From Buxus sempervirens (taxonomy: Eukaryota; Streptophyta; Magnoliopsida; Buxales; Buxaceae): a stretch of 64,000 nt of DNA. Shown piece by piece: positions 9,455 through 55,870 of this stretch (position 1 is its first letter; every line of letters begins with the position of its first letter). The notes beneath the pieces are model-generated. The model did no database searches. It saw only the letters and a list, made by a program, of their open reading frames with translations, and was not told the DNA's origin. The translations under genes and the position numbers were made by a program. The stretch is taken from NCBI GenBank assembly GCA_947561395.2, contig OX387194.1, positions 12,820,048 to 12,884,047 on the forward strand. The letters run 5' to 3'.

Positions 9455-9468
9455 GCAAACAGGGACAA

Positions 9469-20998: not shown

Positions 20999-21016
20999 TG
21001 GCGACTCTACTGGGGA
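20999..21016 (+). promoter_or_regulatory. Primer-binding site (tRNA-Arg type)
   Basis: TGGCGACTCTACTGGGGA starts two bases after the LTR end. It matches the tRNA-Arg-type primer site known for the Tat/Ogre lineage. Confidence 0.85.
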
Positions 21017-22936: not shown

Positions 22937-23466
22937 AACCCTTGGTTGGTCTTCTTTTTACCAATCAAATCAAAAAATTGTGGGACCTCTGGAAGCCCTA
23001 AAATATTCCATGAACCCTTGGTTGGTCTTCTTTTTACCAATCAAATCAAAAAAATTGTGGGACCTTTGGAAGCCCTAAAATATTCCGTAAAAAACCCTTG
23101 GTTGGTCTTCTTTTTACCAATCAAGTAAAAAAAAAGTGGGACCTCTGGAAGCCCTAAAATATTCCATGAACCCTTGGTTGGTCTTCTTTTTACCAATCAA
23201 GTCAAAAAAAAAGTGGGACCTCTGGAAGCCCTAAAATATTCCATGAACCCTTGGTTGGTCTTCTTTTTACCAATCAAGTCAAAAAAAAAAGTGGGACCTC
23301 TGGAAGCCCTAAAATATTCCATGAACCCTTGGTTGGTCTTCTTTTTACCAATCAAATCAAAAAATTGTGGGACCTCTGGAAGCCCTAAAATATTCCATGA
23401 ACCATTGGTTGGTCTTCTTTTTACCAATCAAATCAAAAAATTGTGGGACCTCTGGAAGCCCTACAT
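22937..23466 (+). repeat. Seven tandem copies of a 76-80-bp unit before gag
   Basis: AACCCTTGGTTGGTC begins at 22937, 23013, 23093, 23169, 23246, 23324 and 23400 (the last reads AACCATTGG). Units differ mainly in the length of an internal A-run (6 to 10) and in CAAATC/CAAGTC. The array is accidentally open in several frames. Confidence 0.93.
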
Positions 23467-27360: not shown

Positions 27361-30300
27361 AAATGAAATGTCACGGTTCTTAGCAGATTACAAGGATGTG
27401 TTTGCTTGGTCGTATCGTGACATGCCAGGATTGGACACGGACATGGTGGTGCATAAGTTGCCAATTTTGCCAGGGGTTAAGCCAATTAAGCAGAAGCTGA
27501 GACGATTAAAGCCGGAATGGACCTTAAAGGTCAAGGACGAAGTGGTCAAATAATTTCAAGCCGGATTTTTGGCAGTCTCAACATACCCAGAGTGGCTCGC
27601 GAACATAGTGCCGGTACCCAAGAAGGACGGAAAAGTCAGAATGTGCGTGGACTATAGAGACTTGAACAAGGCAAGCCCAAAGGATGATTTTCCGCTTCCA
27701 CACATCGACATTCTGGTCGATAATACTGCGGTACATAGCCTATTCTCGTTCATGGATGGGTTCTCTAGATATAATCAGATCAAGATGGCTAAGGAAGACT
27801 AGGAGAAAACAGCATTTATCACACCTTGGGGCACATTCCACTACACGGTCATGCCGTTCGGACTCAAGAATGCCAGGGCAACATATCAGCGGGCCATGAC
27901 AGCACTATTCCATGACATGATCCACAAGGAGATGGAGGTCTATGTGGACGATATGATTGCCAAATCATGCAAGGAGGAAGACCACTTGATCAATCTGAAG
28001 AAAGTGTTTGATCGGCTCAGGAAGTACAGTCTACGGCTTAACCCGGCTAAGTGCGTCTTTGGGGCTACATCAGGGAAGTTACTGGGGTTTATAGTGAGCC
28101 GAAGAGGAATTGAAATTGACCCGGCTAAAGCCAAGGCCATAATTGAAATGCCAGCACCCAGAACCGAGAAGGAGGTTCGTGGTTTTCTCGGAAGGATTCA
28201 GTACATAAGCCGGTTCATAGCGCAGCTCACGGCTATCTGTGAACCAATTTTCAAGCTTCTGAGGAAGGATAACCCAACGGTCTGGAATGAGGATTGCCAG
28301 CAGGCCTTCGATACGATCAAGGAATATTTACTGAACCCGCCTGTGCTAGTGCCACCAACTCCAGGAAGACCACTGATCCTGTACTTGTCAGTGTTGGAAA
28401 CGTCGATGGGATGTGTCTTGGGGCAGCATGATGAGACTGGAAGAAAAGAAAGTGCCATTTACTATCTGAGTAAAAAATTCACGGAATATGAAGCCAAATA
28501 CTCACCATTGGAAAAGACTTGCTGTGCTCTAGTGTGGGCAACTCAAAGGCTAAGGCATTACTTCCTTAGTCACTCCACACTATTGATATCTCGGATGGAC
28601 CCGCTGAAGTATTTATTTGAGAAGCCTGCATTGACTGGCAGGACGGCAAAATGGCAACTGTTACTGTCCGAGTTTGACCTCACGTACATCACTCAGAAGG
28701 CGATCAAGGGTCAAGCCATAGCTGATCACCTGGCTGCACATCCTCTGCTAGAATATCAACCCTTGAAGACCAACTTTTCAGATGAGGCAATTCTGTACAC
28801 CGAAGAGGAGGAAAGTGAGAGTTCTTGGCAGATGTTCTTTGATGGGGCTGCCAACATGAATGGGAACGGAATAGGGGCAGTCTTGGTTAAACCAGATGGT
28901 TCACACATCCCGATTGCAGTAAAGCTGAGATTCCAGTGCACCAATAACATAGCAAAATATGAAGCATGCATAATATGGTTGCAAGCCGCCATGGATCATG
29001 AAGTAGAGGAACTTGACGTATACGGGGATTCGAGTCTTATCATCTTCCAAACAACTGGTGAATGGAAAACCAAGGATCACAAATTGATCCCCTATCACCA
29101 GTATTTGGAAGAAATAAGCACAACTTTCACTCGAATTTCCTTCAACTATATGCCAAGGGCCAAGAATCAGTTTGCGGATGCTCTAGCAACATTGGCTTCA
29201 ATGGTCAGCATACCAGAAGGAGTAGACATCAGACCGCTGGAAATTGAGGTTAGAGATGAACCGGCTTACTGTCTCGTTCTAGAGGGAGCACCAGAAGAAG
29301 CACCGTGGTTTCAAGATATCAAAAATTTCTTGAACAATCGGAGTCTACCAGAAAATGCCACTGCTACTGAGAAGAGGACCATACAGAGATTGGCTGGTCA
29401 ATTTCTGCTAAGTGGTGGACATGTGTACAAGAGGTCACATAACGACATTCTGCTCAGATGTGTTGCCAAGGCTGAATCAGAAAGGCTGATTGAGACCGTA
29501 CATGGAGGAGTTTGTGGGCCCCATATAAGTGGGCACATGTTGGCAAAGAAGATCTTGAGGTTGGGCTACTACTGGACGACCATGGAGCATGATTGCTGTA
29601 TACATGTCAGGAGATGCCATCAATGTCAGATATATGCAGATAACAAGCATGCACCCCCAAGTGAGTTGCACAACATGACATCACCGTGGCCCTTCTCTAT
29701 GTGGGGCATAGATGTTATTGGCATGATTTCACCTAAGGCATCGAACGGACACAGATTCATCCTGGTGGCGATTGACTACTTCACTAAATGGTTAGAGGCA
29801 GCCTCATATGCGAATATCACAAGCAACCATGTTATTAAGTTTTTGAAGCACAATATCATTTGTCGCTATGGACTGCCAAGTGCTATAGTATCAGACAATG
29901 CTTCAAATATTAAGAACAAGGACATGAAGAAGATGTGTGAGCAGTTTCAGATCACCCACCACAAGTCAGCTCCGTACAGGCCAAAGATGAATGGGGCAGT
30001 GGAAGCAGCAAATAAAAATATAAAGAAAATCATTCAGAAGATGGTAGTGAGTTACAAGGATTGGCATGAAATGCTACCACTTGCCCTACATGCCTACAGA
30101 ACCTCGATCCGGACTTCAACTGGGGCAACCCCGTACTCCCTAGTCTATGGGATGGAAGCAGTCTTGCCCGTGGAAGTAGAGATCCCATCACTCCGAGTGC
30201 TCATGGAAGCAGAACTAGAAGAAGCCGAATGGGTACAGTCAAGACATGATCAACTTAACCTGATAGAAGAAAAGCGGCTGAAAGTGCTTTGCCATGGACA

Positions 30301-30553
30301 GTTGTACCAGAAGAGAATGGCCCGGGCCTATAATAAGAAAGTGAGGCCCAGAACTTTCCAAGAAGGAAACTTGGTGCAAAAGAAAATTCTACCATTTTTG
30401 GAAGATCCTCGTGGTAAGTTCAAGCCCAATTGGGAAGGGCCATATGTCGTCAAGAAAGTCCTATCAGGGGGTGCACTCATTTTAGCAGAAATGGATGGGT
30501 CAGATTTTCCTGAGCCAATTAACTCTGATGCAGTAAAAATGTATTTTCCTTGA
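27361..30553 (+). pseudogene. pol: Tat pol: reverse transcriptase, two RNase H domains, integrase
   Basis: RT begins near 27370 (DVFAWSYRDMPGLD) and includes VRMCVDYRDLNKASPKDDFP, FSFMDGFSRYNQIKM and the catalytic YVDD at 27941-27952. Stops at 27551-27553 (TAA) and 27800-27802 (TAG) replace glutamine codons; from 27851 a 900-codon frame is open to the end. An RT-linked RNase H follows, then the archaeal-type RNase H typical of Tat (MFFDGAANMNGNGIGAVLV, about 28830-29200). Integrase has the HHCC finger (from about 29491: HGGVCGPH...CHQC) and D-60-D-35-E at residues 621, 682 and 718 of the 900-codon frame. Only the two stops and upstream frameshifts break the polyprotein. Confidence 0.93.
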
Positions 30554-31486: not shown

Positions 31487-33227
31487 CTAATCTCTGTCTC
31501 CTAGCCGCTTCTCAAGCTCCCGAATCCAAGCTGCCTGAGCTGCAATAACTCCTGAAGCCCCCTCTGCAGCGGGATCACTCAGGAAGGAAATGACCTCATC
31601 TGAAAGGGCCTGTCTGATCCGCATACTCCTAAGGCTGGCCAAAGTATCCTGGTACTTCTGCCGTATCATACGGACCTCAAAGCGACAGGCCTGCCTCTGC
31701 TCCTCCAGCTTCTCCTCCATGGCAGTACGGCGGGATATCTGCTACTCAAGCTGCCTCTCCAGATAAAGGCCATGTATCCTGAGCTCCTGGGCCTCCCGTA
31801 CCCATATCTGCTGAAGCCGCCTATGAGAAGCTCTCTCAGACTCTAAAATATCCTCATAAGTAGGAGCTAAGACTGCAGGAGGATCTTCGGGTACTGGGGC
31901 CTGACTCTGTATCTGCTCCTTGATCCAGAAGAGATAATCCTTCACATGGGCTTCTGAGAAGACGGGGCCACGCATGAAGCGAACATAGGACCACTCCCTC
32001 ATCAACCAAGCATTCAGCTTCATGGTATCTGGAGAAAGGGGCCCAAGATGATCCTCATACCCACTTGGGATGATAATCCCTTGGGTCGCTCGGAACTGAC
32101 GAAGGACCCGCAGAGGAAGATACAGCACTGCGTGTCTCAGGCCAGCTAGGATCAAAAAATTGCGGTCACGAAAGCTAATCACTGTCTCTGCATTGGGCTG
32201 ATAAGTACCAGGCCATCTCACCTGGTCATCCTGAAGTGAGCCCAAGAAAGTGAACCAACCTTGTTTGCCCCCTGAAATATCAGGACACCCCCGGTTGCTC
32301 ATCAAGATGGGGACTTTCAGGCTCGGGAAGAAGTGTCGATTGATTTCTTCGATCTGACTCAGATGATCAAGTAGCCAAAGCTGCAAAGAAAGAGAGATAT
32401 ATCAGCACATTGTAAAAGAAAAAAAGCAAAAAATCAAGAAAAAAGCCAAAAAAAAAAAAGCAAAAAGAAAGCAAAAAAGCAAAAAAGAAAGCAAAAAGGA
32501 AAAAATAAAAAAAAAATATATTTTTACCTGCAGGATCTGGGCACATGCTAGGAAGCGTTTCGACTTCCTATTGTAGCAATCAGTCAAGGCCTGATACATC
32601 CCAGCCAAAATCATAGGGGCCAACCTCTCCCTCTCCCTAACCTGGCATATCACTGAAATCAAGGCCAAGTCCACCTCATCATCATCTCGTGGGAAAAGCA
32701 GCTGGTTGACCACTATCAAGGTCAAGGCATTGAACCGGGCTTCCTTGTTCTCCCCCCTCAAAAGCTTCTCAGTCAAAAAAGCCTTAGGCAAAGTCAGAAG
32801 GGTGTCAGAATCCCCTAAATCCTTCTTCCCTATGCCTAGGAAAGTAGAAGCCTCTTTCTTGTAGGAGGGGCGGGTTCACTACCTTCTCTGCAAACCTCAA
32901 GCCCAGGATGGTTTCCACCTCCTCAATGGTTGGGATCATCTCATGGGTCCCAAAACGGAAAAGGTTGAGGTCGGGTACCGAATGACCAATCATGGCCTCT
33001 ATAATCTCCCACTTGAAGGGAACCTTTGGAATGAGCAGGGTGTGGCCTAGATTGGTGGAATCCCATTTCCTCTCCTCATCAAGAGTCATAGAGTTAACCC
33101 ATCTTGTGTAAAAAGAGTCCATAGGGTTGTACCTAGTAAGATTAGGTGGTTTTGATCTAAAGGGCTGTTTTGCAGGGGAGGCAGTGTGGACAGACAATAA
33201 CGGGGCAGAAGATGATCCGGATTCCAT
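31487..33227 (-). pseudogene. Antisense gene 1 of the Tat element: DUF7745-like protein
   Basis: Read on the minus strand with exon 1 33227-32528, a GT-AG intron 32527-32381 and exon 2 32380-31487. Conserved features of the plant DUF7745/plant-mobile-domain group appear in order: DSFYTRWVNSMTLDEERKW, LGHTLLIPKVPFKWEIIEAM, FRFGTHEMIPTIEEVETILG, LILFP-like NQLLFPRDDD, RFLACAQILQ spliced to LWLLDHL, then YLPLRVLRQFRATQG, ending in a coiled coil (EEKLEEQRQACRFEVRMIRQ). ATG 33227 is chosen because the TATA box at 33329 would start RNA near 33300. Defects: a 1-base frameshift near 32870 and a TAG at 31744-31742 (CAG to TAG). Function is unknown; PMD-type proteins are nuclear and linked to TE silencing factors. 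Confidence 0.8.
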
Positions 33228-33328: not shown

Positions 33329-33489
33329 ATTTATAGCATCTTTTAATGTATCCGGTAACTCAGATCAGATAAAAAAGGTTTTATTCATATCCGGTTAAGT
33401 ATACTGGATACAAAGGGGACCATGTGTATCCGGTATATTATACCGGATACAAAGAACAATCAATGTATCCGGTCTGATATACCGGATAC
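33329..33489 (-). promoter_or_regulatory. Antisense promoter module 1: 39-bp palindrome array plus TATA box
   Basis: GTATCCGG (or ATATCCGG) begins at 33348, 33387, 33426 and 33465, exactly 39 bp apart. On the minus strand the array is followed by TATAAAT (33335-33329), then about 100 bp on by the ATG of antisense gene 1 at 33227. Same word and period as the LTR array. Confidence 0.85.
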
Positions 33490-33684
33490 AAAGAAAAAAT
33501 GCAAAAAAAAGAGTAAAGGGAGGAAAATCCGAATTTTTTACCTGTTTTACCTGTGTACAAGTCATAATTGCATGAAATGGAAAAGAAAAGAAGTACAAGA
33601 CAAGAGAATGAAAAAAATTTTTATATATATAAGTCTCGTTTATACAAGTGATAATGCAAAAAAAAAAACAGGAATCCTAATATA

Positions 33685-36600
33685 CTACTCCTGTGCAGGA
33701 TCTCCTCGGCGTCCTCGGCCACGTCCTCCTCTACGGCCTCTCCCCCGAGATGGTCGGCGCCTATAATAGGCCAAAAGTCGCTTCGCCATGTAGCGCGGTC
33801 TCCGACCCACAAAGGACTGAAGCTGGTACTCAATACAGTAATCCGATGTGTCGGGGGAAGGATCAGGAACAGCATCAGAAGAGGCCTCTGGCTCAGCAGC
33901 AACCGGCTCAACTGGGCCCTCAGCCACAGCAGCCTCTGCTCCCACAGATCCAGAAGGCCTAGTAGCAGCAGAAAAGGGTCCAGGAACAGAAATATTTGTG
34001 TCAATGGAATAAAGTCAGAAATAGAAGCATCAAAATAAACCAAGGAGGGAAAATTAAAACTTACCAGGAATATCTACAGCAGAAACTGGGGGATCCGGCT
34101 CAACTGGGTCAGCAGCAGGGATGTCCTCCGGCTCAGGAACCATCACTAGAGATGAAGGAGCAGCCGGGGCATCCGCAGTAGCAGTTGGGACATCCACAGG
34201 ATCAACAACCCGAGCTGGAGATGGACCAAATACAGGGAAGTCAGGCTCGTAGGCAGCATCATCCGGGACCGGGCCCTGCACAAGTCAAAACAGGCATATC
34301 AGAATAGCAGAAACATAGAAATAAAGGAGATGAAAATTACAAAGTACCTGTCTAGCCTGGAGCTCAGCAACTAGGGCCTCCAGCTCCCTGATCCTAGCAT
34401 CCCTCTGGGCCATGACCGTATCATGCTCAGCAATCATATCATCGATCGCGGCCCGCTGGCTCTCGAACCGGTCCCGGATAGTATTCAACTCGTGTACCTG
34501 CCAACAAGAACAGAATTGGGGTCAGAAATACAGAAGGTAAGAAAAGTGGATGAAAATATGAAGATTACGAGACTCACCGTGTCCTCATGGATCCGGATAC
34601 AAATCCCGCCAATCTCGATCACCCCCGCACGAGTGGGTCGATCCATCAAGCACCCAATGGATACACTCTGGATCCACTCGTCGTAATCCCCCGCTACTGT
34701 GAGCCCCTCCGCATCTAGGAAATGATCGAACTGATCCACATCAAAGCCCGGTAGGAGTGTGTCGGGACCCACAGGAGGAGGGGGAACGGGGATACGAGGT
34801 GCGCCGGTGTGCTGGTAGTACAGGCGCTCTCCCAAGTACATCACCCTACCAAGCCTCCCAAGGAAGCACTGGTAGGGCTGATGTCGCTGGTCTCTATCAA
34901 AGGCGTCCTGTACAGCCATCTCACGGGCCACTCCGACATCCACGTCATCAAAGCATGCCAGAAGGAGCTGCAAGGAAGAAAAATAGTCAGATACAATCAA
35001 GGTGCAGGAAAAGAAACAAAAGGGAAAAGGCAAAGAATTTACATCGGATCGTCGGGCGCGGTCCAAGTGCACCCGAGCAGTACGAGGCTGACTCCTATCA
35101 GCATCTCGGACCTGGGCCAACCACTGCAAAGCCACAGGGAAATCCGCGACCTCAGGTACCGGGGATGGGCGGAAGAAAGTCATATAGGTGTACATGAACA
35201 CCTAGCAAAAGAAAAATCAGTCAGAGATAAAGAAAATAAAGCATAAGGGATTAAACCAGACAGATGAATTCAATACTGTAACGCCCCGGATCCGTGTTGT
35301 TCATTAAAGATATAACACGTCTCACGGAGGTTAGGCAAGGATCGTTAATCAATTTATGATCGCTGGATAATCATACATCTATAACCTAACAGAGTGCACA
35401 TTTCCATTTATGCAAAATTGTAACATTTAAACTGAACTGAAATCATATGGTTCATCCCCAATTACTTTAATACATCTCAATTAATTCAAGTTCTCAAATT
35501 CAGAACAGATAACCTACAAGTCTAAGGAAGGTAATAGTAGTCTTCCTCCCTATATGCCTCAGCAGGATCTACCCCAGTAATCGCCTCACCACGAGTATCT
35601 GAAAAAATAGAACAACAACAGAGTGAGATACGAATATCTCAGCGAGTAGCACATGCATGCAGAAATAGTTGAATCATCTTTTAAAACTATGCATCGACAA
35701 CACTACAATATGTTTAAACAACCAACATCAATTTCCCAAGTTCAAATCAAACAAATCACATTTCAGTTAAATACAATAACACATCGATTGGTCAATGTCA
35801 TGACTATCGTTTGGTTGATAAATTAAACATGCCAAGTAGACACTCCACACCTCCATGTACACAGTTCCGGCCTACTCAGGGTTTCGGATACTCTGAAATG
35901 ACGGCCTACTTAGGGTTTCGTCATCCAATGCAGGCCTACTCCCCGGGTTTCTGCATTGACAACCAGGCCTACTCAGGGTTTCTAGCTGCTCTACACCGGT
36001 CGTGGCAATACACAAGGCCATGCAATTCCAACAACCAACAATAACATCACATTACTAAGCTTAAACATCTGGATCCAGGACAAGCTAGACCAAAACAGTA
36101 AACATCGTATAATCTCGATTTCAATATCAAAACAAAACCATTCATTCCACATCATGTAATTTCCTCATCACAATTCATCACCTGTCCCTCTGGACCAAGC
36201 AGTACCTCAAGTACATTCAGTATTTTCTCATTTCCATAACACAAGTCATATGAAAGTAAAACTCAATCCATTCATACCAAAGAAAACCTTTCAATACGTA
36301 TAAAGTTTCCAACAAGTGAAACCAGAAATACAAGAACTTCTCAATCAAAACAGTGTATAGAACAAGGAAAAGTAACTGGTAACTCTTACTAGTTTGGTGT
36401 CCGGCACAATACTCATAAGCAACCTAAACTCAACTTAAAACTCATAAGATGTTCACAAATTTTCCTCTATTAATTTCATAGGCAAAATGGTTTCCCAGGT
36501 TCCCAACCAAGTGAATAGTGAAGTGGTTTAACCCCTAAGAAATGCAAATACTCTTGGTCAAATCAGAAATTCCATTTCGGTAAGCAAAATAGGTCTGCCG

Positions 36601-39600
36601 CTCACCTATTGAGGTGGGCGCGAGGTGAGCGCCGGTCGGCGGTGAAGAAAAAGGGCAAAATCGACCTGCCGCTCACCCGACGCTAGGTGAGCGCGAGATG
36701 GGCGTGAGGTGGGCGCGAGATTCGCGCGAGATGGGCGCCTCGTTTTCTACCTCGCGCGAGATGGGCGCGGGATCGGCGGTAGGTCATTATTAACGGGGCG
36801 CTTACCTCCGAGGTGAACGCCGGTGAGCGCGAGGTGAGCGGATACCCCCTGTGGTTTTCATTTCTCTGTTATTTTGAGATCTACATGACTGGCCGGTTTG
36901 TGAAGGTCTGTAACTACTCCAGTACACTCCTAATACTCCCAGAAGACTTCCCAACCATATTTGAAATTAATCTAAACACTTTCATTTTCAATTATAATTT
37001 CAATCCGGAGACTCTGTTCATGCAACTTTCCGAAAACCAGAAAAACCCAGAAAACTCACACAATCACTTTATATATACTCATGCATCAGAATAATCTCGA
37101 GAGAAACAGAAAAACACAATCCCAGTTGTAAAACAGTGCTACTCACCTGAGTGTGCTTATTCTCGAATGGTAAAACCTCGGCCGATCACTTCTCCGGCCA
37201 CGCACGCGAATGAAAAGTCTACCGAAACTAATCTTCTCGAGCAGAGAGAATAACCCAATGAATTTCAGCTCCGAACTCCTTCTTCCAGCACTTGCGATTT
37301 ATGGTTCTTCACGAACAGAAGCCCTAGTCGCCACTCCAGCCGAAATCGCGAGTTCGCCTGATCTCCAGACTTAACGAAAATATTTCCGTAAGTATACGCG
37401 TATTTCGTTTAAAACTAAAAACCCTACTTTCCCTTATTTGCTCATTAACACTTACCTTGCGAGATGTATACGCCGGTGGATCAACCCTTTTAACCCCTTG
37501 ATCCTATGCATGCTCGCCCACCGAAGATACTACATGTTCAGCATCTATTCGCGTTAATAATCACATAACTACACCATTATAATACCAATGATAATACTAC
37601 GATTTTTCGGAAAAATGGCTATATATCGCCTGTACATATGAGTATGGGCTAAGCCCTCAAACCACAAAATAACCTGATAAACACAGTTTATACATCAGAA
37701 TAAATAACTAAATAAATAAATAAATACTCACAAAATTCAGGGTCTTACAAATACCTGCAGAATCTGCCAGAAGAACCGGCTGCTGACTCCATCACCTCTC
37801 GGGGATGCTAGGCCTCGAACCGCTCGGCACAACCCGGCTAGGATGGTCCCATAGATGAGCCGACCCCATGCTAGCTGGCGGGTCTGATGAAAATCTCGCA
37901 AGGCGTCCAAGAAGAGCGGGCTGACACTGGTCGTATCCTTCGGGAAGAAGCAACTCCCGAGCATCAGCAAAAATACATGTCGAAAGATGGGAACAAAAGC
38001 TGCATCCTTGTAACGCCCCGAACCCGGGTTAGTGCAAACCGGCACCCGACCCGAACCCGGTTCGCTACTGTAACAACCCGAATTTAGTTCAACAACCAAA
38101 TCCGAGGTGTTACTGGCCCATATCAATTACAACATCAATAACATACCAAACCAAAGAAAGTAAATCCAATCCATATATTAAACTATCAGAGTGCGGAAAC
38201 AAGTATGTGCGGAAGTGTAGATCAAAATCCTCAAACAAGCATAAAGCTTGACCATCAGTCAATAGTATCAAAGTCTGGTAGAATGAACTGGTTACTAACT
38301 CTCTTTTGTCTCTCTCATACATCAAATCCAATAAATGATAATAACCAATTAAAAATGCTAAGTCTATAACATCAATCCACCTCAGACAAAGTCTGGATAA
38401 TAATAATCCTCCGGCGAATACTCGGCTATCTCTCCCTGGAAGTCTAAGAGATCCCCCTCTCGCGTATCAGCTGAAAAAAAATGGAATAGAAGTAGGGTGA
38501 GATACTTATATCTCAGTAGGTAACACATGCATGACTAAACAGTTATTATAAGCAAAGTAACATTTCATGCACGATTAAGCAACATCGATAAATCAGGCTC
38601 GCATAATCATTTATACCATTCATGAACACAAAACAGTTTGATAAACAGTTCTAGAAATGATTTTCAGCAAGTTTTAATATAAGAACTCAATAGCCAAATC
38701 AATAGCATAATCCAAGCATTGCCAGGATGTACTAAGCAGTCACATCCAACCAATATCCCAATCACATGCATCCCGCACGTGCACAATAGTAATCATATCA
38801 AGTGTTATGTTTTCAGTGTCATTGTAGGACTCACAAAGTAAGATAAACCTTTTGAGATGATTCTCAACCAATTTGCTATACCACCGTGCGACTTAGGAGC
38901 GATGCTACTAATGATACTCAAGCCCCATGCAGCGCAGCTTAGACAAGAGCCGTAGTCACTGACTTATTGCACACGTACCCATCAAAGTTGGCATGTACCA
39001 CCAGCATGCAGCACCAGAATCAATACATGGAGGTGGTTGCTTATCCACATGTACAGGGAATCACCAGCGGCTCACCGGGGTGTCCCTCCAGACATAGGAC
39101 CTTCCCAGACAAACTAACTTGCAAAGGAAGCGCGTCGCATATAGGAGTAACTCAACCCAAATGACATATCCCTCAGCTATCTAGCTACGACTATGGATCC
39201 ATAACCAGCTATGCCCACTAGACTCCAAAATTCCCTAAAGTATCATATTTCTATAAGGGTTGGTGCCTAGCGGCATATAATGGTTATATCTGTACATTCA
39301 CTTCATTATTCCGTCATTCGGATTCTGAATTCTCTTTATAATGTCTTATGATTTATAATGTCATTTAGAAGTGTTTAGATAATCAAAGGGTAGTTAGGCT
39401 TTTCCAAAATCACATTTCTCATATACCTTCAAAACTTGGCAACTAATGTCCTAAATATCTCCCTAATTTGTTTTTCTGTAAAACAGGGATTTAGGTAGTT
39501 TATTTTGGTCTTAAAGTACCTTAATTAATCATTAAAATTGTCTAAAAATGGTTTAGAATTGATTTAGGTTCGAAATTATGAAAAATTGGAAATTCTGCTG

Positions 39601-41272
39601 AGAGTGCCTGGGATTGCTCAGGATCGCTCCGGGCGGTCATCAGTCGGCGGTAGTGCAATTTCGAGCGCCCACGGTTCGTCGTCCCGCGGTCCACGGCGTC
39701 CTCAAAACTTTAACCAGCGCCTAAGATCGCCGATGAGCGCCTCGCACAGTCGAGGTCGGCGGTCTCACCAAATCGAGCAGAAACAGTTCTAAATCACGAT
39801 TTTTCTCGTCTAAACTCATTCTAATGTATTTATAACATGCTTAGCTAACTAAATACAACTTTACATATCATAGAAACATGCGTTTGCGATTAAACAGAGA
39901 TAAATCCGAATTTAAAACCAAAACGTTGTCACCTACCTCTTGAACGAAGGTTCCTCTTCCTCTCTTCTCTCAACCACGCTTCTCTATCACCCAGCAACAC
40001 TCTGGAAGATGAAGAACTCCAAAAACCCAAGCTTTTCTTCTTCCCCTTCTTCTTCTTCTCCTTCGGTCGCTTGTCGCTTGCGGCTGATCTATACGAGCGA
40101 GAATACACGCGTATAAATTTAGGTTATTAAACTAATACTTATACTCACTTATCCCATGTGTCTCACCTATACCAAATTCCATACACACGCCCAATCAGAA
40201 TACATACCTTGATATCTCATGATCGGACGGTCAGATCTGCGTCTAATTCTGGATCTCCGCTAAGTTGATCACCCCCTACAATATTAAAATGTTTCTATCA
40301 ATCATAACTCTGGGTAATATTATTTACTAATTTAATTTATTATTTAAGGGAAATTCGGGGTTTTACAATCCTCCACAGCGAAGGTCGCATGTCTCCCCTC
40401 AAAATGTCGAGCCAGGCTCTCCCGCAGCCAACTAATAGAGAGACGACCACTCCGCCCATCCCAAGCAGCAGGAGGCAGGGCCTGATATCCCAAGAGAAGG
40501 CCGATGTCCTCCGTGGAAGGCCGATCCAGAACGATAGTCCGCCCCGTCAGAGGAATACCAGTAATCATCACGAAGTAGGAGGGGCGGATCCCTAGCTCCA
40601 CGTCCAGTAGATGGAAGGACTGCGTCTCCGGGAAATATCTCTCCATCATAGCAAAAATGAGTGGACAGTCGGCTCTGAACAATGGGATGCTAAGAAAATG
40701 ATCCAAATGGCACCTCCCAAACTCGCGTCTGAGTGCCGGAGAAAGAGACTGTGCCAACTCTCTGAATCTCCCCCAACTGCCTTGCAAATGGGAGGAGTGA
40801 TACGGAAGAGGCACATCTGCCCTGATGCACATGGAGGGGTGGCTATCCAAGCCACTGAGGAACTCTGTATCATGAACAGATACTCTCAGCTCCTCAGAAA
40901 CCCCTGACAAGGCTACGGCAACACCATCCTGAGCCGCATCTCTGGCTCTGCCTCGGCCTCTGCCACGGCCTTTCTCGCCCTCAAGGGCATGATCCTGAAC
41001 TCTACCTCGGCCTCTGCCCCGACCTCGAGCCAGTGCAACCACGGGCTAAATTTCAAGAGAAAGGTGTGAAGATTGGTGTAGGAAGAGAATAGAAGGAAGA
41101 AAAGCAGAATTGGGAAGCCTACCTCAGCAGAGCCCTCAGCGGAACTCTCTCTGAAATCATCTAGTGGATCTGACAGGGTGGTGCTAGAACTCGCCTCTGC
41201 CCAAGCTCGCGAAGTGGAGGGCTGATCAGCAGGGTCAGCCTCCTCTCTAACTCGGGAACGGCTCCTAGCCAT
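33685..41272 (-). CDS. Antisense gene 2 of the Tat element: plant mobile domain (PMD) protein, seven exons
   Basis: Minus-strand exons with GT-AG borders: 41272-41123, 41045-40373 joined to 38003-37755, 35201-35043, 34967-34578, 34497-34348, 34275-34065 and 33958-33685. Exon 2 carries the PMD core: LRREFGRCHLDHFLSIPLFR, MMERYFPETQSFHLLDVELG, then HVFLLMLGSCFFP and TRQLAWGRLIYGTILAGLCR. Exon 5 is a coiled coil, exon 6 Pro/Ala/Asp-rich, exon 7 ends with an RGRGRRGG tail. Two solo LTRs interrupt it: one in exon 2 (38009-40367; frame restored if the duplication is counted once) and one five bases into intron 2 (35277-37749). Introns 1 to 5 keep phase 0; exon 6 to 7 is off by one base, so a small indel or other splice site is likely. 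The promoter is at 42637-42714. Function is inferred only from the PMD family (nuclear, silencing-related). Confidence 0.78.
35277..37749 (-). mobile_element. Solo LTR (Tekay-like) in intron 2 of the antisense PMD gene
   Basis: TGTAACGCCCCGG...GGTCTTACA, 2473 bp, with perfect duplication AATAC (35272-35276 and 37750-37754). Minus orientation is inferred from a TATATATAAAG on that strand near 37068 and from similarity of the ends to 10559-13583. A GC-rich block of GAGGTGAGCGC-like words spans about 36595-36840. Confidence 0.9.
38009..40367 (-). mobile_element. Solo LTR (Tekay-like) in exon 2 of the antisense PMD gene
   Basis: TGTAACGCCCCGAACCC...GGGTTTTACA, 2359 bp, perfect duplication ATCCT (38004-38008 and 40368-40372). 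It splits the PMD codons for VED and AAFVPIF. Related by its ends to 35277-37749. GC-rich block at about 39590-39780. Confidence 0.92.
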
Positions 41273-42636
41273 CTACACAGGGAAGTGTTTTATGAATTTC
41301 AGTTTAAACTTATGAGATTTTGCTTTACTTTCGGTTTAGGTTGATGTTCACATTCAGTCTTACATGATTTTTTTTCCAAATTATCGTGAATTGTGCCTCG
41401 AGGGTATTTTATCTGTTCCAGTGCAAAGTTTTCTAAAATAATGAGTATTTCCATTTGGTGAAATCCTAATGCTAAAGCTTTTTAAGGATATCTGCAAGGA
41501 TTAATATTTGCTAAATTGTTTCAGGATTGCCACATGCAAAAGGTCTTAATTGATCAAAGACTAAGGCTGTAGAACCCAAAGGTCAATCCAGGAAAAGCCC
41601 TAGCAGTCAAAGCGCCTCCTTGGTCAAGAGCATGCTAAAATCCGATCAGAAAAGAACGAGATCATAGCATGGCATGTGAAAAATGCTAAGTTCTCAGACA
41701 CTGTCAAAGATATCATGTTCTAAAAATTGCAGCTCGATAACAGCATGCAATCAACTCCAAAACCACGAGTGGAGAACTTGCTTTGAAGATATCAAAGGGA
41801 TAACGTCAAATGTGGTCAAGAACAAGTCATGGGAAAATCATGTCAGGGGGAGCATTACTTTAAGTTAGGAATCAAAGCATGGTTGAAAACAAATCATATC
41901 ATTTAGAACATGTTGAAATGAGATAAGCAATTCAGTCCATCACTGGCAGGCAATTCCAAGGTCTAAGGCAACAAACCATGGTCATCAGGAATCATAAAGC
42001 AAATGGCAGAGAAAATGTGTCATGGCATCAAGTCTGAAATTTCCAGCATCAACAATATAAAGAGTTTATGAGCAAATTCGTCCAAATACAGTCATTATGC
42101 AGGGATTCAATAGCAAATACAAAATCTGATCCTATGCACTTGTGAAGAACAATGGAGAAATGGACAATTCACCACAATTAAGAGAAACCATAGCATGGCA
42201 AAATTGCTTGGATGTGGCAGTGAAGCACATTGCAAGGAAAAATAGCACCTGGCATTAAATTCGTCCAATTGAGCATGAATTGGTCGCCAAGAAAAATTTA
42301 AATCTCACTAACCTGGACGAGCAGTGGAGAAATCAAGTGCCTGGTTGCAAGTGGGAATCAAGGGACAAGTAGCCAGAGCAGAACCTCCAATGCCAAGCTG
42401 AGAAATCGCAGGAAAATAGGAAAAATCGAGCTAGGGCTCGACCACGGCTGAGAAGGGGCAATCACTGATGTCGCCGAAGTTATAGGCTATCGCCGGCAGC
42501 AATAGAGGGCACCGGAGCTCAAGGAATCGCCGGGAGTGATCGGAGAGGAAGGAACAATCGGGGACGAAGGGTCTGTAGCCGGTCTGAGTAAACGGAGAAG
42601 GAGAAAAGAAGAGGAAAAGTCGCGGCCGCGCGCGAC
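41273..42636 (-). other. 5' leader of antisense gene 2, no coding seen
   Basis: Between the minus-strand TATA box at 42637 and the ATG at 41272. No supported frame; a long 5' UTR or an unseen first intron is likely. Confidence 0.45.
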
Positions 42637-42714
42637 TTTTATAAGCAAGTGTATCCGGTGAATCAGGCCGGATACACACAAGGCCATTCGTATCCGGTAT
42701 GTTATACCGGATAC
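42637..42714 (-). promoter_or_regulatory. Antisense promoter module 2: palindrome array plus TATA box
   Basis: Two GTATCCGG...CCGGATAC palindromes start at 42651 and 42690 (39 bp apart). On the minus strand they are followed at once by CTTATAAAAGTC (TATAAAA 42643-42637). The array looks cut short by a purine tract beginning at 42715. Confidence 0.78.
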
Positions 42715-42912
42715 AAGAGAAAAAAAAGAAAAAAAAAAAGAAAGAAAGGAAAAAAAGAGAAAAAGAAATGGAAAAAGGAAAAAAGGAAAAAAAAAGGAAA
42801 AAAGAAAAAGAAATGAAAAAAGGAAAAAAGAAAAGGAAAAAAGAAAAAAAAGGAAAAAGAAAAAAAAAAGAAGAAAAAGGAAAAAAAAGAAAAAAAGAGC
42901 AAAAAAAAAAAT
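42715..42912 (+). repeat. About 200-bp purine-only tract (GAAAA-rich)
   Basis: Almost entirely A and G on the + strand, AAAAAGAAAAAGG-like. Open frames here (poly-Lys/Glu on +, poly-Phe on -) are by-products of composition. Confidence 0.9.
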
Positions 42913-43312: not shown

Positions 43313-45644
43313 TGTAGACACCCCAAATTGCACTGTCAAAATGATCAATAATGATAAAAAATCATTATCTCCTTGAAAGCCAGCACAAAAATTGAAGAAA
43401 ATAAGTTTTTACCTGTATCCGGTAACTCAGGCCGGATACAAGTACTCCTCTTTGTATCCGGTGGAACATACCGGATACAAAAGAGCTTTAGTGTATCCGG
43501 TATATAATACCGGATAGCTTAAGGCCCTTGTGTATCCGGCCTGATATACCGGATACCTAAGTTTTGCTCAAAAATTAGGGTTTTCCGAGAGAAATCACTT
43601 TTTACCATCATATCCCTCATTAAATGAGGGGAAATCTCGGAAACAGCCTTAGGGTTAAGGTTGGTGGGTTCTAGACATTAAGTTGTGTCTACCAACAACC
43701 CTAACCTTTGCCTATAAATAGGAGGCTCCTCCTTAAGCAAATGGCCATTAACTCTTGCCTTGAATTCTCGCCAAGGAGAGCTCCAAGAGAAGAGGGAAAC
43801 CGCTGCGGAGGTGCTTCCAGAACCCAGGTAAGCCTCAAACCTCTTTTTAATTTTTGTCTTTATATTTCTAGATCTAGATCTCTTCTTCTACCTTTCTGTA
43901 GAATAAGGCCTTCTATGTGTGTGGAAATCCTTCCCCGGCTCAAAGTATCTCGAGACTCCCCCTAGTCGTAAAACGTGAAGGCGGGATCTAGGAGAAACGA
44001 GACTGGGGATTGACCCTAGTACTAGAACCCTATTTGCATAAGCCTTTTGATTGATTGTAAACCGTTTCATATTTAAAGTACCCTTGATTATCTTGAAGAA
44101 CCGTGTTTAACGGGGAGAGAGAACAAAGGGAAACGATAATGGAACGGAACCCTAGGCTGTTTTAGAACCTTATTTTGAGGAATATGTATGCATGCTATGT
44201 TGTTGTATTAATCTTGTATGGTTTTTTACACTTACACATACATTGCACCCGTTTTGGCGGGATAGGCTCATATTTTGGGTTTATTACATTTATTGTGATA
44301 AATCTAAAATAAATGGCCTCAATCAATTCTGGAATGTTTTTAAAAGGTTTTTTTTAAGGATTTGTATTCATTTTGCACGAATCACACACACTTTATCACA
44401 GTTTTGAGTTGGTTTTGTTCAAAAAGGGCTTTACTTGACAGCAACTGTACCCCAACTTCGGACACTCATAACTTCATCGTCCGGATGAATTTTGGAGTGA
44501 TTCTAGAACCATGGGAAAGGTAAGGCTGTCTAGTTTATGTCCACCAAAGTTTATTAATTTCTATCAAGCGGATTTGTGACACCTCTCTGTCGAAGTTGAT
44601 TGGACAGTTCAGGTTCAAATACAGAACTTGTCACTTCGACGGAGCGCCATGTGTTCGTTTTAAATCCGATTCGAGTGATTTTTGTTTTTGGGCACTCCTT
44701 TATGAGTCTATTTTTAAATCCAATTGATTTCATAATTTTTTGATTTAAATTGTGTCGTGGAGAGCAGATTTATTCAGAACTGCTCAACAGCACTTTTCTG
44801 GGTCAATCTGTGATCCTCGGGGCCTGTTCAGGAAGTCACCCAAGGCACATCCGAATGAGTTTTTGTATGAGACTAGTTTCTTTTATAATATGGCTATACA
44901 AACTTCATTGACACCCAATTTGACGGATTTCTGTGCAGTAGATTTTTCTAGGTGATTTTCCAAAGTTGCCTACTTGCCACTTTTGATTTTCTCCGGCAGC
45001 AACTTTAAAAGAGCCATAACTCTTAGGATTTCAACCGGAATTAATAGAAATTTTGCATGAGACTATTGTTTACCCTAATCTTTCAAATGGATTTGGTTTG
45101 ATTTAATTTAAAATTGGATTTGATTAATTTCAAGAGAAATGGCCTTACTTTTTACCAAATCTCCCGGATTTGCCTCAACTTGGTTTTGTGCAACTTTTGC
45201 TGTGATTTCCATCTTTTTGTAATATTCCAGAAGTGATATTAACATAAAAGAAGATCTGGAATTCATTTAGATCTTCATGTGAAGATATCATATATTTGTC
45301 CTTTTTCAAGGTTTTCATGATTTTTTAGCAAGCTTTCTATTTTCTTTTAGCATGAATAACACTTGGCAACCACCTTGTATGGGTGAATGGGGGTGCCTAA
45401 CACCTTCTCCCGTTCATAATCTAATCCCCTTACCCATCTCTGGATTTGATTTTCAAGTAGGGTTATTTTTACTCTAGAATTTGCCTTTTAGCACTTTTTA
45501 TTTCTTTTTGCTTATCTTTAATCTTTTGGTGTCCATTCTCACCCCAAAATTCTGAATGGTGGCGACTCTCCCAATTTTGTGTTGAGCCCGTGTGTTGACG
45601 GAGGGGAGATCAACTTCGGGTGATTTTTTTTCCCATGTCTCACA
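43313..45644 (+). mobile_element. 3' LTR of the large Tat element
   Basis: 2332 bp, nearly identical to the 5' LTR. Palindromes at 43415, 43454, 43493 and 43532 (exact 39-bp steps), TATA box 43713-43720, primer-site-like TGGCGACTCT at 45560. Followed by the ACCAT duplication. Confidence 0.95.
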
Positions 45645-45649
45645 ACCAT

Positions 45650-49221: not shown

Positions 49222-49680
49222 TGTAGACACCCCAAAATTGCATGATTTTTGATAAATCTTGAAGGAGAGAAATATTTTATTGGAATTTTCAATTCTTAGC
49301 GTTGGGTTTGAGATCCTCAACCCATTTGAATCCAAAACCATAAAAGAAAAGGCCCGAATTCAATCCTTTGTGCAAAGTCAAACTTTTTCCGATTGAATTT
49401 TGTTTACTTTTGACCCCAAAAAATGAAATATTTTTTAAAGCAAGATGTCAAGATAATTTTTCCCGGTAATCAGGTTTTTAGCAATGTTATTGCATAAATG
49501 ATTTTTTTTTTGAGATTTTAAATCTTGACGAATACCTTGGTATTAACATATTGAACCTTTTTACTAGACCTGAAAAACCGGAATTTTGCCTTGAACTGAA
49601 AAGTTGACTTTTTATTCACTTGGAATTTGGGTCTGGAACTATTTTTAATGGATTCAAATTGGGGGGGGGGGGGGTGTTTG

Positions 49681-49762
49681 CTTATTTACATGTAATATCT
49701 TAAGTAAATGGAGATTAAAAAATACGAGGACAGTTACTTAAACGATATTACATGTAAATAAG
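49681..49762. repeat. Large U3 hairpin
   Basis: CTTATTTACATGTAATATC and its mirror GATATTACATGTAAATAAG, extended by AAGTAAA/TTTACTT, around a central AT-rich loop. Repeated in the LTR at 54725 (55183-55264). Confidence 0.85.
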
Positions 49763-49828
49763 TACTCCCTGTGCAGGCAAGGGTTAGTGCCATGCAGAAA
49801 CTATGCAGAGAAGCTTTTTTTTTTTTTT

Positions 49829-49970
49829 GTATCCGAAATTATATGTCGGATACAAGCCTTTTTCTTTATATCTGACATTATATGTCGGATACAAGCCTTT
49901 TGCTTTGTATCCGATATTTTATGTCGGATACAAAGATTTTTGTTTGTATCCGACCTGAGTTGTCGGATAT
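49829..49970 (+). repeat. 39-bp-phased palindrome array in LTR-D
   Basis: Unit starts 49829, 49868, 49907 and 49946, exact 39-bp steps, word GTATCCGA...TCGGATAC. One base differs from the GTATCCGG word of the large element, and the change is made on both arms. Confidence 0.92.
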
Positions 49971-50990
49971 AAGGATTTTGCTCAAAAGTGAGGAATTCTG
50001 AAAGTTTTCACTTTTTACTGTCTTATCCCTGTTCTAAAAGTGGAAATCTCGAAAATAGCCTTAGGGTTAAGTGGGAGAATGCTAGACACTTCCTTGTGTC
50101 TACCATTAGGGTTTGCCCTAGCCCTAGTCTTTGCCTATAAATAGGAAGCCTCTCCTCAAGCAAATGACCATAAGTTGGAGATTGAAGAGCTCCGAGTGAA
50201 GAAGGGAACCGCTGCCGCACTGCTCCCAGTAAGCCTGGAACTTCTTTATTTTTCTGTTTTTACATTCTAGGGTTAGATCTCTCTTCTACCTTTCTGTAGA
50301 ATAATGGCATACTCTTTATGTATGCAATCTCTTTCCCTACTCAAAGTACCTCGAGACTCCCTCTAGCCGTAAAACGTGAAGGGGGATCTAGGGGAAATGA
50401 GATTGGGAATTGATCCTTAGACATAGAACCCTCTTGAATGGCCTATTGTTCTGTGAAAACCCTTTCTATACTCAAAGTACCCCAAGACTATCTCGAAACC
50501 GTAAAACGGGGAGAGAAAACTAAGGGAAACGAGAATGGAACGGAACCCTAGGTTTTTTAGAACCCCCCTTTGATTAATGTACTTTGAATGCTATATGTTG
50601 TTATGTATGTGTTTAGAGAGATGATTTTTACACATGCACACATAGCACCCGTTTTGTCGAAATTGGCTTGTATTTTGGATCTATCGTATTCATTATGATA
50701 AATCTGAAATAAATGGCCCCAAGCATTTCTGAGATATTGCTTAGTGATTTTCAAAAGGATACAAACAATTTTATCTTGAGTATGGAAGATCTCATGGTCT
50801 AACCTCTTGGTTTTGGGCATTTTTGTCCCATTTTAGGGTTTTTGGTATATTCTCTCCAATCGAATGGTGGGTTGAAATCCTAACTCTAGGGTTTTTCTGC
50901 TTCTGTTCTGATTCATTTCTGTCTGATCTGGCCGGCTTTCATCTGTACAAAGGCCAACTAAGACTAAAAATGCTTCCAGTGGACTAAATG

Positions 50991-51923: not shown

Positions 51924-54508
51924 TGTGCGCACCTAAATTTTGACTAGATCGCACACGAGGCGCACGTGGATTCGTGCGTGCCTCGGGACTTTCAGAGTCG
52001 CCACTGCCTGAGAGGTGCAGGCAGACACGGGTGACCTAACCGGTCTAATCTTGCTTAGTCTGCGGCTTTTTAGAAACTCTGGTTAAGTTCTCGGTTACGT
52101 CCGGGGAAGTCCGAAGACACCCCGGCCATCTCCGTCAATCTGACGGGTCCCTCAGGTCTCCCTGGTTTTGAGTCAATTTTCACCCTTTCCTAGACCAGCA
52201 TGCTTCCTATTGGGTCTGGTGGGGTCCTTTGAAGGTGTGGGCCCCTTTTTATTTCATTTTTTATCTTTTATTTTAAGTGAGGTGGGTCGGGTATAGGCCC
52301 TGTTGGAAGGCCTGTGGGTTGCCAGGTTTGCGCTTTGGCCCAGTGGGGTTATTGGGTAACCCTTTTTGGGTTTTATTTTGGTTTATCAAAGTTAGAAGGC
52401 TCAATGGGCTTGGTCTGGGCCCATGAAATATTATACAAGTGGCCTTGGGCCCGTTCGTGGGAAACGGACTTGGTTTTGGGCCGGTCAAAGGTGGGCCCCA
52501 TAAGTGGGCCCAAGGGATCTTGGTGGGCCCATCTAGGCCCATGGTTTATCAATGGGCTAAAAATAGCCCAAACAGCTTTATTGCGTTTGGTCTTGATGGT
52601 TTGGGTCGGATCAAGCCCAACCAGGTCGAAAAATTACATTTTTAAGTTATTTTTAAAGCCACCGGTATTTACTATACGGGTTGGCATTGCCCGTAAATGC
52701 AACACGGGTCAGGCTTGCCCGTATAGTAAATACGGGCACGCCCAAACTGCACTGCCAATACGGGCACGCCTGATTTTACAGTTTTGTGCCAATTTTGCTT
52801 TGGATCAAATTGGTTGGCTTCTTGGGGTGTTCCGCAGCTTTTGTTGAAGTTTCCAATACTTCTGTTATAGTGCAAATGTCCTCATATGCCTTCAAGCTCT
52901 CCTTCTTTCTATCTTTTGAAGTTTTATAATGAGATGAAATCTCACTCTTTCTTCACTTGGTTGAGTCATTTGCAGGATGTGAAAGCAAGAAGAAATGGGT
53001 TGGGGTTACACCAGATAATCCAAAGAGGATAGACCCCTCTTGCATTTGCAAATAAAATCATTCAAATTAAAATATGTTAGTTTCCATATTTTCTTTCTTT
53101 GGATCTACTCTTTACCCTCTCCGCGAAGAAACACTCATTTATATGGGAGGATCCCCGGCACAAGTGAACAAAAAGATTAGTAAAAATATAAGAGAATAAG
53201 AAGAATTCAAGCTTGCGCAAATAAGGAAACTCACATATGTATATAAAAAAAGATTAGAAGTGTTACCACACTATTAATTCTTTGATCTGGTGATGTCGAG
53301 ATTCTCTGAGAATTTTGACAGCGCTACCGCACTCCAGTGAATTTCCAAGAATGGAATGAAAAGGGATTCCTCACTCTTGGGTTGTAAGGGATGAAATGTG
53401 CAAGGGGATGGTGCAATCCAAGGGTACTTTTGGGTTTTGGTTTTGAGTGGAACAGAGTTTGGGCAGGGGTTTGGACATGAAAAGGACAAAGAAGAAGAGG
53501 GAGAAGGCTATAGGGGACCAGCTTCTCTTGAGGGAAATCAAGGATGAAGAGAGAAGGGAGAGGGTGAGTGAAGTGGGAGACAGCAAAAGGGGAAGAAGAG
53601 GGGTTCGTTGCTTGTCTTTGGAATGTGGTGGGGGGGGGGGGGGGGGGGGTGGCCCCCCTTTTATAGTTGAAAAATGCACTAAAAATGAATTTTAATCACC
53701 TTTTTCAACTGAATTTTAATTTTATATTTAACATAACTAAAACTTAAATATGTTTTATTCTTATCTTTCCAACTCGAATGTGGTTGATTTTTTTGTTTAT
53801 TTTTCATTTATCTTAATTTTTAGATTCTTTAAGATTTATTATTATTTTATTCTTAAGATTTTTTTTTGTCAAAAACGCATGTGCATTTTCTATTTTCCAT
53901 TTTACTTTTGATTTAATTTAATTGTTAGATATTTATAAAATATTATTATTTTATTCTTAGATTTTTATTTGTTGTCCTTTCTTCAATCTTGCCACATGTG
54001 CAGATTTTCTGAGATTTTTGACTGCTCATAACTTTCTCATTTGATATCCGATTTCAACAAACTTAATGGCGTTAGAATCAGATTGAAATCTTCTATCTAT
54101 TGAGCTAGAGTTTGGTAGCAAATTCGGGCTTTTTAGCAGAAGTGCAAAGTCGCGCCCCGGAGCCAATTTTGCTCATATCTCCTTATCCGGGACTCTGATT
54201 CCAGCAAACTCAGTTGCGTTGGAGTTGTGTCAATGCGCTCTTTCTGCTGATGTCCAATTGAGCAGCTAATTTGGAGTTTTGCAGAAAGCCGATTTCTGTT
54301 ATTTCCAGATTTGACCAGCCCATAACTTCTTTATCCGAACTTCGATTTGAGAAAACTCAGTGGCGTTAGAACCGTATCAGAATCCTCTTTCCAATGGTAT
54401 GAAGTTTGGTGGTCAATTATCCTTAGATGAAAAAGTCAACTTTTGACCCCCTTAGGGTTTGACTTTTTATTTTCTTCATTTTAGGGGTGCAAAAATCAGG
54501 TGTCTGTA
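51924..54508 (-). mobile_element. 5' LTR of the minus-strand Tat element ('GCGCACA' family)
   Basis: Plus-strand ends TGTGCGCACC and GGTGTCTGTA; the latter's terminal CA seems mutated to TA. It shares conserved blocks with 7966-10066 and 58253-61342. GCCCGTA-type palindromes at 52661, 52689 and 52717 (28-bp steps). A minus-strand CTATAAAAGGGG lies near 53655-53665. A G-run of about 21 is at 53630-53650. It abuts the Copia-1 RT at 54509. Confidence 0.88.
52661..52737 (-). repeat. 28-bp-phased palindrome array
   Basis: ACCGGTATTT, GCCCGTAAAT and GCCCGTATAG start at 52661, 52689 and 52717, with ACGGGT/ACGGGC mirrors; a further ATACGGGC lies at 52757. Confidence 0.8.
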
Positions 54509-54724: not shown

Positions 54725-55320
54725 TTTAGACACCCCAAAATTGCACGATTTTTGATAAATCTTGAAGGAGAGAAAGATTTTATTGGAATTTTCAATTCTT
54801 AGCATTGGGTTTGAGATCCTTAACCCATTTGAATCCAAAACCACAAAGGAAAAGGCCCGAATTCAATCTTTTGTGCAAAGTCAAACTTTTTCCGATTGAA
54901 TTTTGTTGACTTTTGACCCCAGAAAATGAAATATTTTTTAAAGCAAGATTTCAAGATAATTTTTCCCGGTAATCAGGTTTTTAGCAATGTTATTGCATAA
55001 ATGAATTTTTTGAGATTTTAAATCTTGACGAATACCTTGGTATTAACATGTTGAATTTTTTTACCAGACCTGAAAAACCGGAATTTAGCCTTGAACTGGA
55101 AAGTTGACTTTTTATTTACTTAGAATTTGGGTCTGGAACTATTTTTAATGGATTCAAATGAAGGGGGGGGGGGGAGTGTTTACTTGTTTACATGTAATAT
55201 CTTAAGTAAATGGAGATTAAAAAATACGAGGACATTTACTTAAATGATATTACATGTAAATAAGTATTGCCTGTGCAAGTAAGGGTAAAAAAAAGGTGAA
55301 AAATTGCAAACCTGTTCTGT

Positions 55321-55425
55321 TCGCATTTGGTATGCGGACAAGCCTTGACCGCATTTGACTTGCGGACAAGGCATGTCCGCAATCCAAATGCGGACAAGGC
55401 ATGTCCGCAAATCAAATGCGGACAC
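55321..55425 (+). repeat. 28-bp-phased palindrome array in LTR-E
   Basis: Unit starts 55321, 55349, 55377 and 55405. Linkers AAGGCATGT repeat the linker logic of the array at 828-1041 although the arm word differs (CCGCA/TGCGG against CCCGT/ACGGG). Confidence 0.9.
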
Positions 55426-55870
55426 ATGTGTTTTGGGCATTTTCGTAAAATCTTGATTTTTGAGCCTTGTTACTATTTTGTTCCTCTTTCTAGGGTTTCG
55501 TTCGGCCGTTTTTACTCCAACTCTTGTTTCTAAAAATGAATTGAAACATTCTAGAACCTCTGAGGACCACCCTTGCCCCTGTTCTTGCTTATAAATAGGA
55601 GGCCTCTCCTCAAGCAAAAAGCGTGTCTGCAATCCAAATGCGGACAAGGCATGTCCGCAAATCAAATGCGGACACACGTGTTTTGGACATTTTCGTAAAA
55701 TCTTGATTTTTGAGCCTTGTTACTATTTTGTTCCTCTCTCTAGGGTTTCGTTCGGCCGTTTTTACTCCAACTCTTGTTTCTAAAAATGAATTGAAACATT
55801 CTAGAACCTCTGAGGACCACCCTTGCCCTTGCTCTTGCTTATAAATAGGAGGCCTCTCCTCAAGCAAATG
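55371..55870 (+). repeat. 250-bp tandem duplication of palindromes plus TATA box
   Basis: 55371-55620 and 55621-55870 align at an offset of exactly 250 bp (AATCCAAATG at 55381 and 55631; CAAGCAAA at 55611 and 55861) with few mismatches. Each copy holds two palindrome units and one TATAAATA. Confidence 0.95.

Follow-up and report, generated by a model that had tools for sequence, protein, structure and literature searches.

In Sirevirus retrotransposons, element-specific palindromes with a CGG-CCG core (RM boxes) are repeated many times ahead of the long terminal repeat (LTR) TATA box, with more of them upstream of ENV (Bousios et al., 2010; PMC2829016). In VANDAL transposons, tandem family-specific noncoding motifs diverge together, and the element-coded protein VANC, for which binding and demethylation have been demonstrated, acts on its own family only (PMC5735166; PMC10398659). 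These papers, and those cited below, are used here from parts of their text. We compare these systems with E1, an LTR retrotransposon located in a 64,000-nt stretch of the Buxus sempervirens genome (assembly GCA_947561395.2, contig OX387194.1, positions 12,820,048 to 12,884,047 of the forward strand; this whole stretch is hereafter called the window, and its numbering is used throughout), which carries palindrome arrays both in its LTRs and before two antisense genes.

Antisense PMD-type genes in large plant retrotransposons are already known, as is antisense TRP28 in Retand. PMD has been found in 57% of Ogre elements, in extra antisense open reading frames (ORFs) (Neumann et al., 2019; PMC6317226), and a regulatory role has been suggested for the antisense TRP28 proteins of Retand (Vicient, 2025; PMC11963269). 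The host PMD proteins MAIN and MAIL1 are required for silencing of transposable elements and for expression of genes with a common promoter motif, 'DOWN' (PMC7156037). To antisense PMD-type genes, the examined portions of the literature assign no established function.

We observe that palindromes with a constant frame, CCG-N11-CGG, form arrays at the LTR promoter of E1 and before both antisense genes, that E1-type elements retain these arrays in front of the two genes, and that the letters flanking the CCG and CGG cores match within elements and between families. The matching sites lead to a testable reading, in which the antisense genes would be part of a cis-trans system specific to the element, with the LTR also under its control.

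Palindrome Arrays and TATA Boxes of E1

E1 is a young LTR retrotransposon of approximately 27 kb (18667–45644, plus strand), Ty3/gypsy with Ogre-like features, flanked by a 5-bp target duplication, ACCAT (18662–18666 and 45645–45649). Its LTRs (18667–20996 and 43313–45644) are 98.8% identical to each other, the primer binding site (PBS) is at 20999–21016, and behind pol (27803–30553, plus strand) two genes lie head to tail on the minus strand.

In the U3 region of the 5' LTR four 39-bp palindrome units form an array (18768–18911), with the TATA box TATAAATA at 19067, that is, at a distance of 155 bp. The 3' LTR has the same units (43414–43557) and TATAAATA at 43713. The first-pass annotation had proposed that LTR-type palindrome modules also precede the antisense genes: a 39-bp array, then TATAAAT and the ATG at 33227 on the minus strand for gene 1, and an array followed by TATAAAA for gene 2. 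This was confirmed in both cases. The array before antisense gene 1 (aP1, 33347–33490) consists of four 39-bp units, the two nearest to the TATA box being decayed in the E1 copy, and is separated by 11 bp from TATAAAT (33329–33335, minus strand); the array before antisense gene 2 (aP2, 42650–42715) has two units, 6 bp from TATAAAA (42637–42643, minus strand). One more array, with a decayed unit 1, is situated in the leader between the PBS and gag (22515–22658).

The recurrence of the 39-bp LTR unit is not expected by chance: TGTATCCGG-N9-CCGGATACA sites with at most three mismatches in the 18 dyad letters number 25 in the whole window, arrays of other elements included, whereas 100 dinucleotide shuffles contain 0 on average. 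As TATAWAW occurs approximately once per kb per strand (66 plus-strand and 68 minus-strand matches in the window), two TATA boxes at most 11 bp away from the arrays, both on the correct side and strand, are also unlikely to be accidental.

Two other details have to be revised. The antisense modules had been described as reversed, but a four-unit array is similar to its own reverse complement, and hence the orientation is undecidable: out of 84 variable positions compared between the LTR and antisense arrays, 42 match in the plus and 44 in the minus orientation (neither value is attained in any of 10000 shuffles). Nor is one fixed palindrome–TATA unit reused, given the spacing of 155 bp in the LTR vs. 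6–11 bp before the antisense genes.

The unit nearest to the TATA box in E1-type arrays (18768–18911, 33347–33490, and 49828–49971) often has the core CTGA (CCTGAtata, CTGAGTTA, etc.), and the same is seen in most relatives compared.

Conservation and Flank Co-variation in E1-Type Elements

The 676.5-Mb assembly contains 2053 + 2085 exact matches to TGTATCCGG-N7-TACCGGATACA and no exact match to its reversed control. Searching the genome with exon 1 of gene 1 yielded 150 scored matches among 4887 candidates, the best 30 of which, including E1, were considered as loci. Retention of the arrays in related elements had been set beforehand as a test, and within the gene 1 clade they are retained: in 29 of the 30 loci a TATA box precedes the ATG and at least two dyads occur within 160 bp upstream of the box, the sole exception being L037, where the TATA box is deleted. 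Across the 30 loci, dyads number 3.3 per 351 bp in the promoter and 0 in both the gene body and a further-upstream window.

Nine further elements were chosen from these loci for their varied promoters, and 8–15 kb upstream was taken for each. The LTR array, the two-unit aP2 and aP1 are all present in each of the ten E1-type elements (E1 included), and their letters match within elements, in agreement with the earlier suggestion of one cis module serving the sense and the two antisense promoters. The gap between aP1 and the TATA box is 11 bp in nine of the ten (27 in L049), and the LTR array lies 154–166 bp from its TATA box in nine (in L047 it was not found). The gene 2 box varies in the nine relatives: TTTATAAG in five, other TATA-like words in three, and TTTACTTAAG in one.

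Four half-site flank positions were then compared across the LTR, aP2 and aP1 arrays of the ten elements, the comparison being restricted to units in which 11 or more of the 12 core letters are matched. Within-element agreement is greater than that obtained by label permutation (z = 5.76, p = 5e-5, 20000 permutations; position by position, p = 0.008, 0.80, 0.008, and 0.0002), and holds when X1 (p = 0.0005), L044 (p = 0.0002) or both (p = 0.016) are excluded. Since the elements are related, this co-variation amounts to about three events. CCGA is present in all three arrays of X1; CCGGC, in all three arrays of L043 and in the LTR and aP1 of L042, its aP2 excepted; and an outer GG with an inner ATCCGG is seen in L044, fully in aP2 and partly in the LTR and aP1.

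Such matches might arise without any trans-acting factor, by copying or conversion between the LTR and the internal promoters of one element. This would agree with the similarity of the LTR and aP1 arrays across four units (E = 3e-19), with their match in register, not reached in 10000 shuffles, and with the weak co-variation of the 12-bp spacers taken as a control (z = 2.15, p = 0.017). However, the dyad flanks co-vary above both the spacers and the centers (z of 5.8 vs. 2.2 and 1.6; for the central 7 nt, z = 1.58, p = 0.064), and the arrays are located at the promoter and absent beside it, so that we regard copying as a very improbable source of the pattern.

One Frame Under Different Palindromes

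The palindromes of window LTRs differ in their letters: GCCCGTA..TACGGGC in E5, E6, and E8, TGTCCGCA..TGCGGACA in E4, AACCG..CGGTT in E7, TATCCGAC in E2 and E3, and GCCGGC in E9. The frame common to the differing palindromes of the nine window elements is CCG-N11-CGG, found 47 times compared to 2.6 ± 1.5 in 100 shuffles, while N10 and N12 gaps occur four and six times, respectively. The 47 sites include both E1 LTRs and a duplicated E4 promoter, and thus are not 47 independent events; all of them fall within E1–E9 as delimited by us, two (42579 and 52451) outside clear array units. Array units have periods of 39 or approximately 28 bp, the difference being about one helical turn.

The palindromes could instead work through hairpin formation in RNA or single-stranded DNA, being sources of small RNAs or targets of silencing rather than protein sites. 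Palindromes of Sirevirus LTRs have been linked to small interfering RNAs, and most arrays described here would be included in the full-length sense RNA. Hairpins, however, require neither a gap of exactly 11, nor a place just upstream of the TATA box, nor periods of 39 and ~28 bp one turn apart, and we consider this explanation very unlikely.

Beyond the E1-type elements, a genome search with PF24924 (DUF7745) gave 118 scored matches out of 5751 candidates, and 1.2 kb, mostly upstream of the match, was taken at 12 chosen places. A start of the gene 1 type (PPNxTRY) is present at seven of them. Three or four dyads are intact in five of the seven, namely four closely similar CCCGTA-family copies and one of the AACCG type, and the other two have decayed arrays of the AACCGC and TCCGCA types. 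The five remaining places comprise three with an IEKCA start and two unclassed. Relaxed dyads across the 12 regions number 17 at N11, against 0–5 at any other gap length between 5 and 17. The IEKCA-start DUF7745 genes (L050, L052, and L061) have no array in the stretch examined and may belong to another element lineage.

For three elements with gene 1-type genes, one per family (B, C, and D), the LTR side was also taken. In each, a single array type recurs at three places, namely the LTR, aP1, and a site close to the LTR resembling aP2: CCCGTA in family B, whose LTR is 89% identical to that of E5; AACCG in C; and ACCGCA/TCCGCA in D, which has an E4-like LTR and decayed arrays, its aP2 being a single imperfect dyad. 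When the arrays of the four families (E1, B, C, and D) are assigned to elements in all 576 ways, the true assignment scores best; here array regions were delimited by hand, one mismatch was allowed in the CCG/CGG letters, and dyads failing the symmetry filter were dropped (e.g., two of four in the LTR of B).

These data bear on the nature of the factor, for which the first-pass annotation had named either the PMD-type proteins of the element or one host factor. An element-coded factor fits, whereas a host factor with a single specificity does not, since there are four different flank types. Host transcription factors with a CCG-type core, for example AP2/ERF-like ones, might instead bind the arrays; the families would then have adapted to different host paralogues, and the host would control the LTR and antisense promoters jointly. 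The CCG core is indeed present in all flank types, and Sirevirus boxes are reported, in the part of PMC2829016 used here, to contain mainly sites of stress-related factors. Yet with a fixed dyad and at least four flank types changing in step at three promoters, this would require one host factor per family, and we find it unlikely rather than far-fetched.

Several other features of window elements may be mentioned. E6 (~247–2692, target duplication CTATC) and E7 (~7966–10068, minus strand, target duplication CTATT) were read by eye as solo LTRs, each with two separate arrays bearing the palindrome of its own LTR. Two solo LTRs with 5-bp duplications, also read by eye, are at 16422–18220 (CCACT) and 58255–61341 (ACATG). 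In the LTRs of E6, E7, E8, and E9 an array is placed far from the TATA region, toward the LTR 3' end (1891–1962, 8572–8617, 52691–52735, and 59239–59333, respectively). The E3 and E4 LTRs (49222–49784 and 54725–55286) are 94% identical over the first 563 bp, and the similarity drops at the edge of their differing arrays; as this reads as LTR recombination, a possible array swap between them was considered but not counted as separate evidence. A 250-bp piece of the E4 LTR, containing dyads and a TATA box, is tandemly duplicated (55368–55867, 97% identical).

Antisense Genes and Classification of E1

Antisense gene 1 (DUF7745/PMD, 31742–33227, minus strand) starts with the ATG at 33227 and has a predicted intron at 32527–32381. 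The E1 copy has a frame change near codon 122, whereas, of the 150 copies listed from other parts of the genome, many have longer open frames at gene 1. The piece after the frame change, spliced across the predicted intron, matches DUF7745 (PF24924, E = 2e-17) and PMD (PF10536, E = 7e-10), the latter above the cut-off.

Antisense gene 2 probably extends from 42.6 to 33.7 kb. Judging by reading frames, its putative coding part spans 33685–41272 on the minus strand, with candidate PMD exons near 41045–40344 and 38126–37737 and a likely RG-rich end at 34014–33685. In the two exons the PMD matches are weak and fall short of the curated cut-off (E = 1e-4 and 4e-3). The PMD frame has its first ATG at 41272, 1.3 kb away from aP2, and a predicted intron in the 5' untranslated region, read by eye, may connect them, with the donor at ~42312 and the acceptor immediately before the ATG. 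The resulting noncoding exon 1 (predicted, 42312–42612, minus strand) has no ATG, nor does the predicted leader of gene 1. ATG is absent from 303 of 5000 shuffles of the 301-nt gene 2 leader exon and from 3.4% of the region's minus-strand windows; in the case of gene 1, whose leader is short, the absence is uninformative (2410 of 5000 shuffles). No protein homologues of the spliced gene 1 piece or of the gene 2 PMD exon were found, in a database possibly poor in plant proteins.

A GC-rich inverted repeat, AAGTCGCG..CGCGACTT, is located immediately downstream of the TATA box of gene 2 (42615–42640) and recurs, slightly changed, in nine aligned relatives. The gene 2 leader also contains a weaker CCG-N11-CGG dyad (42574–42600), and several relatives have similar weak units there.

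The pol domains of E1 are ordered RVT_1, RT_RNaseH, RVT_3, rve, which is the gypsy order with a second RNase H-like domain; the RVT_3 match would correspond to the archaeal-type RNase H of Tat. Because of this order and of PMD inside an extra antisense ORF, as in Ogre/Tat elements, we tentatively place E1 with Ogre/Tat and call it Ogre-like. TRP28 (PF04195), which marks the antisense ORF of Retand, had no match in the 13 antisense pieces and ORFs that were scanned, a subset of the antisense frames. The gypsy order also sets E1 apart from the Ty1/copia elements that carry the Sirevirus RM system. Upstream of the E1 gag there is a 76-bp tandem repeat (22936–23463, approximately 6.8 copies), which partly reads as a repeated peptide.

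A Possible Element-Specific Circuit

A dimeric, family-specific DNA-binding protein would account for a constant frame with changing flanks, for a like change at three promoters, and for periods that differ by about one turn. We think it probable, if far from certain, that an element-specific dimeric regulator reads the arrays in a private feed-forward circuit, the element itself being its most likely source (the DUF7745/PMD protein of gene 1 or the PMD protein of gene 2). The arrays would then be multi-site operators or enhancers, in which a half-site would be CCG with approximately three specific letters on each side, the halves being 11 bp apart. With copies before the LTR promoter, which would drive the sense RNA, and before both antisense genes, the protein, once expressed, might activate, or keep unsilenced, its own gene and the neighbor gene, together with the sense RNA of the family it belongs to, similar to what VANC does in VANDAL transposons. 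The effect could be activation, repression or methylation protection. Each dyad contains CG and CHG sites, and hence binding could depend on methylation.

Several observations weigh against this circuit. At the five DUF7745 places lacking the PPNxTRY start there is no array, four being without a dyad and one having a single weak dyad. Families B, C, and D are represented by one element each, D being decayed, and the canonical TATA word follows aP1 in E1-type elements and in B, and is missing in C and D. One of the four flank positions carries no signal, the spacers co-vary weakly as well, and two of the approximately three events are partial, as the aP2 of L042 and a part of the L044 arrays deviate. 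Finally, for the antisense proteins we found no relatives among solved structures and no DNA-binding domain beyond the PMD/DUF7745 matches.

The chances are roughly even, in our judgment from sequence data, that the circuit is a general one. In that case Ogre-type retrotransposons would each code a private dimeric transcription factor or anti-silencer of a fast-evolving DUF7745/PMD family, always reading CCG-N11-CGG with changing flanks, and several insulated feed-forward circuits would operate in one plant genome. Should the cis-trans reading hold, private regulators comparable to VANC, each insulating its own family, would have evolved in LTR retrotransposons, and MAIN, MAIL1 and other host PMD proteins may be domesticated relatives of them. 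A frame that stays fixed while its flanks are exchanged would then represent a natural collection of DNA-binding specificities.

Comparison With Known Systems

In the literature searched we found no report of a tie between LTR and antisense promoters, of arrays before antisense genes, of a constant frame, or of co-variation. Ogre and Retand elements likewise have antisense genes behind pol, but the consulted parts of PMC6317226 and PMC11963269 report neither promoter arrays nor a link to the LTR, and Retand carries TRP28. MAIN and MAIL1 resemble the proposed regulator as PMD proteins tied to genes with a common promoter motif; they differ from it in being host proteins that act with PP7L, and direct binding of the motif is not shown in the part of PMC7156037 used here.

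The closest match in organization is the Sirevirus RM system, with palindromic CGG-CCG boxes upstream of both the LTR TATA box and an extra gene. It belongs, however, to Ty1/copia elements and to a sense ENV gene, and in the text of PMC2829016 available to us the printed boxes have no common gap and no co-variation test is seen, whereas E1 is a Ty3/gypsy element with antisense DUF7745/PMD genes and the single frame CCG-N11-CGG. As in VANC/VANDAL, the motifs described here vary from family to family but remain similar inside each one. VANDALs are, in contrast, DNA transposons with demonstrated binding, for which no palindrome is named in the cited portions of the papers, while the regulator proposed here is predicted from sequence.

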